Below, piece after piece: positions 676 to 29,208 of a stretch of 64,000 bases of DNA (within the stretch, counting starts at the first letter, position 1; each line of letters starts with the position of its first letter). The notes below the pieces were generated by a model. It had not been told where the DNA came from, made no database searches, and was given only the letters and a program-made list of their open reading frames with translations. The stretch is from Eriocheir sinensis (lineage: Eukaryota > Arthropoda > Malacostraca > Decapoda > Varunidae): positions 30,001 through 94,000 of the forward strand of contig NW_026111770.1 in assembly GCF_024679095.1 (NCBI RefSeq), read 5' to 3'. The translations under genes were made by a program, and so were the position numbers.

Positions 676-792
676 CTAGGCTTGTTTGCTAGGAGACATC
701 TTCATCACCTCTTCCATTTCCCTCTTCTTCTTCTTCAGTTCCTTAATCTTTTTCATAAGTCTCTCCTTCTTTGCGGTGTTTGCTTCCGTATT
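676..792 (-). CDS. Exon 6: Lys-rich C-terminus and stop
   Basis: The acceptor is a long (CT)n run ending TCTAG|AATACG. Thirty-eight codons then read NTEANTAKKERLMKKIKELK, KKKREMEEVMKMSPSKQA, ending in TAG (678-676). Entry is phase 0, matching exon 5. The K/E/L/M pattern suggests a highly charged helix that could extend the upstream coiled coil, and a basic tail opposite in charge to the acidic mucin repeats. Without splice phase this would look like chance low-complexity sequence. The matching phase and the downstream polyadenylation signals raise confidence. Confidence 0.7.
   Translation of the reverse strand, partial: NTEANTAKKERLMKKIKELKKKKREMEEVMKMSPSKQA

Positions 793-29208: not shown

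Follow-up and report, generated by a model that had tools for sequence, protein, structure and literature searches.

We asked whether a stretch of the Eriocheir sinensis genome holds a working gene for a giant secreted mucin-like protein and, if so, how such a protein might act with ends that resemble no mucin domain. The window that we analyzed is 64,000 nucleotides long and spans positions 30001-94000 of one contig (NW_026111770.1 of assembly GCF_024679095.1; C1544 in our numbering). The locus lies on its minus strand, and all window coordinates below refer to positions within these 64,000 nucleotides.

A six-exon gene model around a 14,757-nt repeat exon

We recomputed the six-exon model from the sequence and obtained 15,243 nt in one frame, encoding 5,080 residues and a stop, with five GT-AG junctions whose phases (0, 1, 1, 0, and 0) all match, just as the original prediction had assembled them. 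As an observation of sequence, the gene model is confirmed. The start ATG is at 29208 and the stop TAG at 676-678. Exon 1 (29149..29208, minus strand) carries the ATG and a predicted signal peptide, MARRRLVHLAAALLLMTLPE, in which a by-eye reading finds a basic start and mostly hydrophobic residues from 6 to 18, and it ends in phase 0. Exon 2 (28513..28564, minus strand) encodes residues 21-37 and the first base of codon 38, ending in phase 1. Exon 3 (8157..22913, minus strand) also ends in phase 1 and contains an N-terminal Cys-containing domain, a Thr/Ser/Glu repeat array, and a coiled-coil domain; its measured 14,757 nt agree with the 14.76 kb proposed for the repeat exon, and it sits without a stop within a 4,931-codon stop-free open reading frame (ORF) that itself stops at 8146. 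Exon 4 (3921..4069, minus strand) encodes Cys 4959 and 4995, exon 5 (1266..1373, minus strand) runs from phase 0 to phase 0, and exon 6 (676..792, minus strand) encodes a Lys-rich tail and the stop TAG. Beyond it we counted three AATAAA polyadenylation-like signals (466..509, minus strand; TTTATT on the plus strand at 466, 476, and 504) rather than the two previously claimed.

Splice sites were scored in bits with a matrix built from consensus frequencies. From 5' to 3', the ten sites scored 4.6 (exon 1 donor, GTGGGT), 6.6 and 6.8 (exon 2 acceptor and donor), 7.7 and 2.5 (exon 3; donor GTGAGT), 1.4 and 0.4 (exon 4), 7.5 and 3.6 (exon 5), and 7.6 (exon 6 acceptor). The description of the GT-AG sites as good thus holds for most of them (the eight others lie at 2.5-7.7 bits) but not for exon 4; with 1.4 bits at its acceptor and 0.4 at its donor, it is weak and the least certain exon of the model. 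At the exon 6 acceptor, a 118-bp (AG)n/(CT)n microsatellite (window 795-912) forms the polypyrimidine tract, so its length could differ between individuals and affect splicing.

An automatic exon-chain search covered the 8.2 kb that follow exon 3 and was limited to sites of at least 2 bits. The best chain (score, 35.3) ended on exons 5 and 6 but used a decoy exon 4 (5156-5265) that falls within a LINE. Only 1 of 60 shuffles at this threshold gave any chain, and that chain scored 29.9, above the 29.2 obtained when the 3' chain of the model was scored directly. With the site threshold lowered to 0, 53 chains were kept, and the full 3' chain of the model was absent from them, since the search keeps one best path per end point. 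Some chain arose in 100 of 200 dinucleotide shuffles at threshold 0, with a maximum of 28.4, and none reached 29.2, so that 1 of 260 shuffles matched the model chain when both runs were pooled. The real sequence itself holds higher-scoring 3' chains that use a different exon 4.

Base composition bears on the same exons. GC content is 0.62 in exon 4 versus 0.36 and 0.39 in its flanks and 0.63 in exon 1 versus 0.31 and 0.40, with a further GC peak at exon 5. Exon 4 has stops in both other frames. Codon position 2 had the lowest GC in six of the seven segments tested, including exons 4 to 6, the exception being the N-terminal domain. These coding-like patterns, the GC peaks at exons 4 and 5, the presence of exons 5 and 6 in the best automatic chain, the failure of all 200 threshold-0 shuffles to reach the full chain, and the position of the AATAAA signals after exon 6 all argue against a different C terminus, in which the transcript would end after exon 3 or skip exon 4 and the 124-residue tail of exons 4 to 6 would be absent or altered. 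We regard such a transcript, which would be compatible with a mucin, as unlikely, even though the exon 3 donor and both exon 4 sites are weak. If exon 4 were skipped, a different frame would still run open into exon 6, and an unspliced exon 3 donor adds Cys-Glu-Tyr and then TAA, in keeping with the stop of the exon 3 ORF at 8146.

The repeat domain and the surroundings of the gene

The tandem repeat array (8501..21784, minus strand) consists of about 49 units, mostly of 97 amino acids (291 bp). An anchor motif delimited 49 units, of which 40 have 97 residues, six have 60, one has 95, and one has 74; the end of the last, 49th unit is undefined, and all 48 measured lengths are whole codons. Mean DNA differences between units are 2.5-4.1% at unit offsets 1-19, so that units are about 96-97% alike, and because of this likeness the repeat number would be expected to differ among individuals. 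Comparison of the 40 full-length units with their consensus gave 59 distinct single-base variants, made up of 23 synonymous changes (15.4 expected; P = 0.02), 36 replacements, and no stop (2.2 expected; P = 0.08). The evidence that the repeat frame is under selection is modest but consistent.

The array makes up 88.7% of the protein length, and proline makes up 4.5% of the array. The whole protein is 30.9% Thr, 18.2% Ser, 12.9% Gly, 12.5% Glu, and 4.4% Pro, and its only eight Cys residues (139, 179, 203, 209, 4862, 4897, 4959, and 4995) all lie outside the array. Between the ends, 2,428 of 4,656 residues are Thr or Ser, and the net charge is -462. Arthropod mucins are delimited, in the scheme by which Syed et al. 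2008 (PMC2515642) named those of Drosophila, by Ser plus Thr above 25% and by proline-containing repeats over more than one-third of the length. The crab protein has 49.1% Ser plus Thr against that 25% threshold, and its 49 proline-containing units cover the 88.7% given above, although the low proline of the protein counts against a mucin. Composition and repeats thus bear out the acidic Thr/Ser repeat domain of the original prediction, and the sequence supports the view that the locus encodes a giant secreted mucin-like protein with neither a VWD nor a peritrophin domain.

Acidic repeats could also mark a cuticle or gastrolith matrix protein that binds calcium and is mainly phosphorylated, at Ser-x-Glu sites in the Golgi, rather than glycosylated as a mucin; the gene would then be real and its product secreted. 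The net charge of the repeat domain fits such a protein, as do its 175 S-x-E motifs (mean of 113 and maximum of 139 in 200 shuffles, although these sites repeat and are not independent), and PMC2612702 links glycoproteins to the calcification of the cuticle in crustaceans. However, Thr (32.9%) exceeds Ser (19.2%) in the repeat domain, which favors O-glycosylation, Asp amounts to 0.1% there, and Pfam found no chitin-binding domain. We therefore consider a matrix protein distinctly improbable.

The surroundings of the gene are rich in repeats of other kinds. Two non-LTR retrotransposon pieces (5430-5957 and 6761-7117) lie in the intron after exon 3 on the plus strand, opposite the gene, and another plus-strand piece (25300-26100) lies in intron 2. 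Pfam recognized endonuclease and reverse transcriptase in these intronic pieces, and the protein database contains relatives up to 87% identical to the second piece. An AT-rich satellite with about 16% GC and a unit of roughly 45 bp fills window positions 30364-64000, in blocks that alternate in consensus orientation with switches near 37.8, 43.3-43.8, and 51.7 kb, some of them near long (TA)n runs. Contig positions 94001-104000 (L015) have equally low GC, judged by base composition only. About 21 kb past the 3' end of the gene, an ORF (L014:8860-9198, on C1544) matched part of a CUB domain (E = 5.5e-5), and this was the sole non-retrotransposon match among the three flank ORFs scanned; it overlaps another ORF (L014:8064-9095) of a tandem repeat of about 20 residues.

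We searched the crab's own genome (1,765,103,840 bases in 2,158 contigs; best candidates scored) with the unique parts of the protein. Among the candidates scored, the exon 3 part of the C-terminal domain, exons 4 to 6, and the N-terminal domain were significant (E ≤ 0.001) at the gene's own locus only; the first gave one match and the N-terminal domain one full-length match. Beyond their own three exons, exons 4 to 6 gave seven extra matches (E = 0.27 to 8.1), which we judged to be coiled-coil noise. Two further matches of the N-terminal domain (E = 0.01, over 26 residues) correspond to a 484-bp copy of a piece of exon 3 (window 21971-22454, about residues 191-351). In a match listing without the window's own locus, this copy lies at C1333:111929-112412 with 6 mismatches and no gap (98.8% identity) and, with the same score, at C1360:161946-162429. 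The two contigs share 97% identity across 30 kb and thus probably represent a single site in two haplotypes. Because five of the six differences alter the encoded residue and the surrounding sequence bears no relation to the mucin-like gene, the copy looks like a recent, nonfunctional fragment. Next to it, C1333 carries more than 12 kb of a tandem array that starts near 114,300 (L019 near 7,340, and L020). The array has a unit length of about 30 bp, and its minus strand reads as a repeat rich in Thr, Ser, and Pro.

Some of these features would suit a decaying or assembly-inflated tandem-repeat ORF in place of a working gene: LINE pieces occupy the introns, one flank is a satellite, a fragment of exon 3 also occurs at another place in the genome, and no relative was found in the collections searched. 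Nevertheless, 14.8 kb are free of stops and frameshifts, the variants among units are biased toward synonymous changes (P = 0.02, as above), and the start, the signal-peptide-like exon, and the in-phase exons are all intact, and on this evidence we hold decay or inflation to be very unlikely.

Structure and relatives of the end domains

The coiled-coil part of the C-terminal domain (8158..8454, minus strand) includes Cys 4862 and 4897. Hydrophobic residues fill eight of its a/d positions in a row (P = 0.003 in 2,000 shuffles), and a single-sequence model predicts two long helices with a mean pLDDT of 81. The heptad signal of exons 4 to 6 was not significant (P = 0.77 for a 28-residue window; P = 0.10 for the run). 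The coiled-coil/Cys C-terminal domain with a Lys tail that had been proposed is thus present, with the heptads and predicted helices located in its exon 3 part. The exon 3 part of the N-terminal unique domain (22374..22911, minus strand) begins at residue 39 and contains Cys 139, 179, 203, and 209. A helical Cys domain had been claimed here, and the cysteines were found. The model of this domain is unreliable, with a mean pLDDT of 47 and a hint of three helices, and the heptad test was not significant, so that the helical nature of the N-terminal domain is only suggested.

Pfam placed neither end and no part of the exon 3 product in any family at its curated cutoff. VWD, C8, TIL, and cystine-knot domains gave no Pfam match in the two ends and the exon 3 product (VWD and cystine-knot at E ≤ 1), nor did the peritrophin-A chitin-binding domain, in agreement with the claim that the protein carries no known mucin domain. 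Subthreshold Pfam matches fell mostly on the coiled-coil C-terminal domain, the best being Syntaxin (E = 2.7e-4, under its cutoff). Sequence matches to PDB entries at E ≤ 1 (4 and 1 for the searches) were judged to be chance, and the best of them (E = 0.0023) was a designed protein. A fold search with the C-terminal domain returned 590 matches at E ≤ 10 and none at E ≤ 0.001, with helical hairpins as the best (0.17).

We also searched the terminal domains alone against a protein database, in length bands set by a 0.55-1.75 rule, with proteins of about 2,290-2,710 residues falling outside. These word-limited searches gave no relative among the best candidates scored for either end in proteins of 334-1,064 and 719-2,287 residues and none for the N-terminal domain in proteins of 2,712-8,629 residues; they cover annotated proteins, not unannotated decapod genomes, and a weakly similar relative could escape the candidates scored. 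As an internal control in the 719-2,287 search, a LINE piece with about 114 scored residues gave 19 matches among 7,986 candidates scored, all of them LINE-type proteins (Pfam domains, 17-23% coverage). Two of them carry species names, the isopod Armadillidium vulgare and the moth Cydia strobilella, which shows that the database includes arthropod proteins; a LINE is an easier search target than a single gene because it is multicopy. Scans with the N-terminal domain gave 5 pattern matches in viral contigs and 12 in prokaryote contigs, none of which was confirmed, so these contigs gave no hint of a relative among viruses or bacteria. Among the titles listed in term searches of open PMC papers, none concerns such a crustacean gene, and the word "mucin" is absent from the main text of a paper on the mitten crab accessory gland (PMC3547057). 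Within these length bands, the searches support calling the protein unrecognized, and the search of the ends that had been proposed as a check found no relative in a database holding arthropod proteins.

A predicted giant mucin and its likeness to known mucins and glues

Vertebrate gel-forming mucins have a giant central tandem-repeat exon between Cys-bearing ends, with VWD and cystine-knot domains. The crab gene resembles them in its giant central repeat exon with Cys-bearing ends on both sides, but its product is without a Pfam match to VWD, C8, TIL, or cystine-knot. The absence of VWD and peritrophin domains is not unusual in arthropods, since Drosophila mucins without a conserved domain have been reported: Syed et al. 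2008 (PMC2515642) describe six mucins and three mucin-related proteins of this kind, and Drosophila mucins there range from 300 to 23,000 residues. Like that domain-less Muc group, the crab protein has Thr/Ser/Pro repeats over more than one-third of its length and no conserved domain. Its Cys-bearing ends, coiled coil, acidity, and small share of proline set it apart from that group, and the protein searches of the end domains detected no relationship in sequence to Drosophila Muc.

The Drosophila glue proteins offer another comparison. In overall plan the crab protein resembles Sgs1, Sgs3, and Eig71Ee (PMC6352337): it shares their long Thr-rich repeats, and its putative signal peptide would correspond to theirs. 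Those proteins have disordered repeats quick to change in number and a conserved C-terminal end with Cys residues suggested to cross-link, and a disulfide-bridged fibrous matrix has been suggested for the glue (PMC6352337). In the Sgs1/3/7/8/Eig71Ee family the signal peptide is split by a phase 1 intron (PMC6352337), which is not so in the crab gene, where intron 1 is in phase 0 after residue 20 and a phase 1 intron follows residue 37. Sgf1 and Sgf2, small atypical Drosophila mucins that form a gel trapping spores (PMC13373891), are lineage-restricted, secreted, and mucin-like, as the crab protein may be, and their function was formerly obscure. They differ from it in being small, the likeness is by description only, and an immune role in the crab is unsupported. 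The crab protein is most likely an additional arthropod mucin with orphan ends, as predicted from its gene sequence.

We think it reasonably probable that the gene encodes a secreted, heavily O-glycosylated giant mucin, a mucus or adhesive component networked by its Cys-bearing ends. The signal peptide would direct the chain into the secretory pathway, where Thr and Ser side chains, judging from composition, would be O-glycosylated. Together with the net charge of -462, the O-glycans would turn the chain into an extended brush that binds water. Chains may pair into oligomers or networks through their C-terminal coiled coil and the cysteines at both ends, which would stand in for the VWD and cystine-knot domains of vertebrate gel-forming mucins, and the Lys-rich tail may bind the acidic brush of neighboring chains. 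A gland or the gut epithelium would release the product as mucus or as an adhesive. Decapod oesophageal glands and midgut are described as mucin secreting (PMC11870918), and they are plausible production sites.

More tentatively, and with considerable doubt, the gene may represent a mucin family restricted to a crustacean lineage, whose gels would need no VWD, cystine-knot, or chitin-binding domains, its giant polyanionic, glycosylated brush polymerized by the C-terminal coiled coil and disulfides and cross-linked electrostatically by the Lys tail. The coiled-coil and disulfide route to gel formation is the unusual part of this scheme, and we put it forward as a testable proposal rather than a finding. 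Giant repeat exons are difficult to annotate, and for this reason gene catalogues may lack the chief structural proteins that make up mucus, glue, or gut lining in crustaceans. With its unique ends, a complete gene supplies specific probes, the end domains, for the producing gland, and such probes would let one ask whether arthropod mucins gel via coiled-coil/disulfide ends instead of VWD domains.
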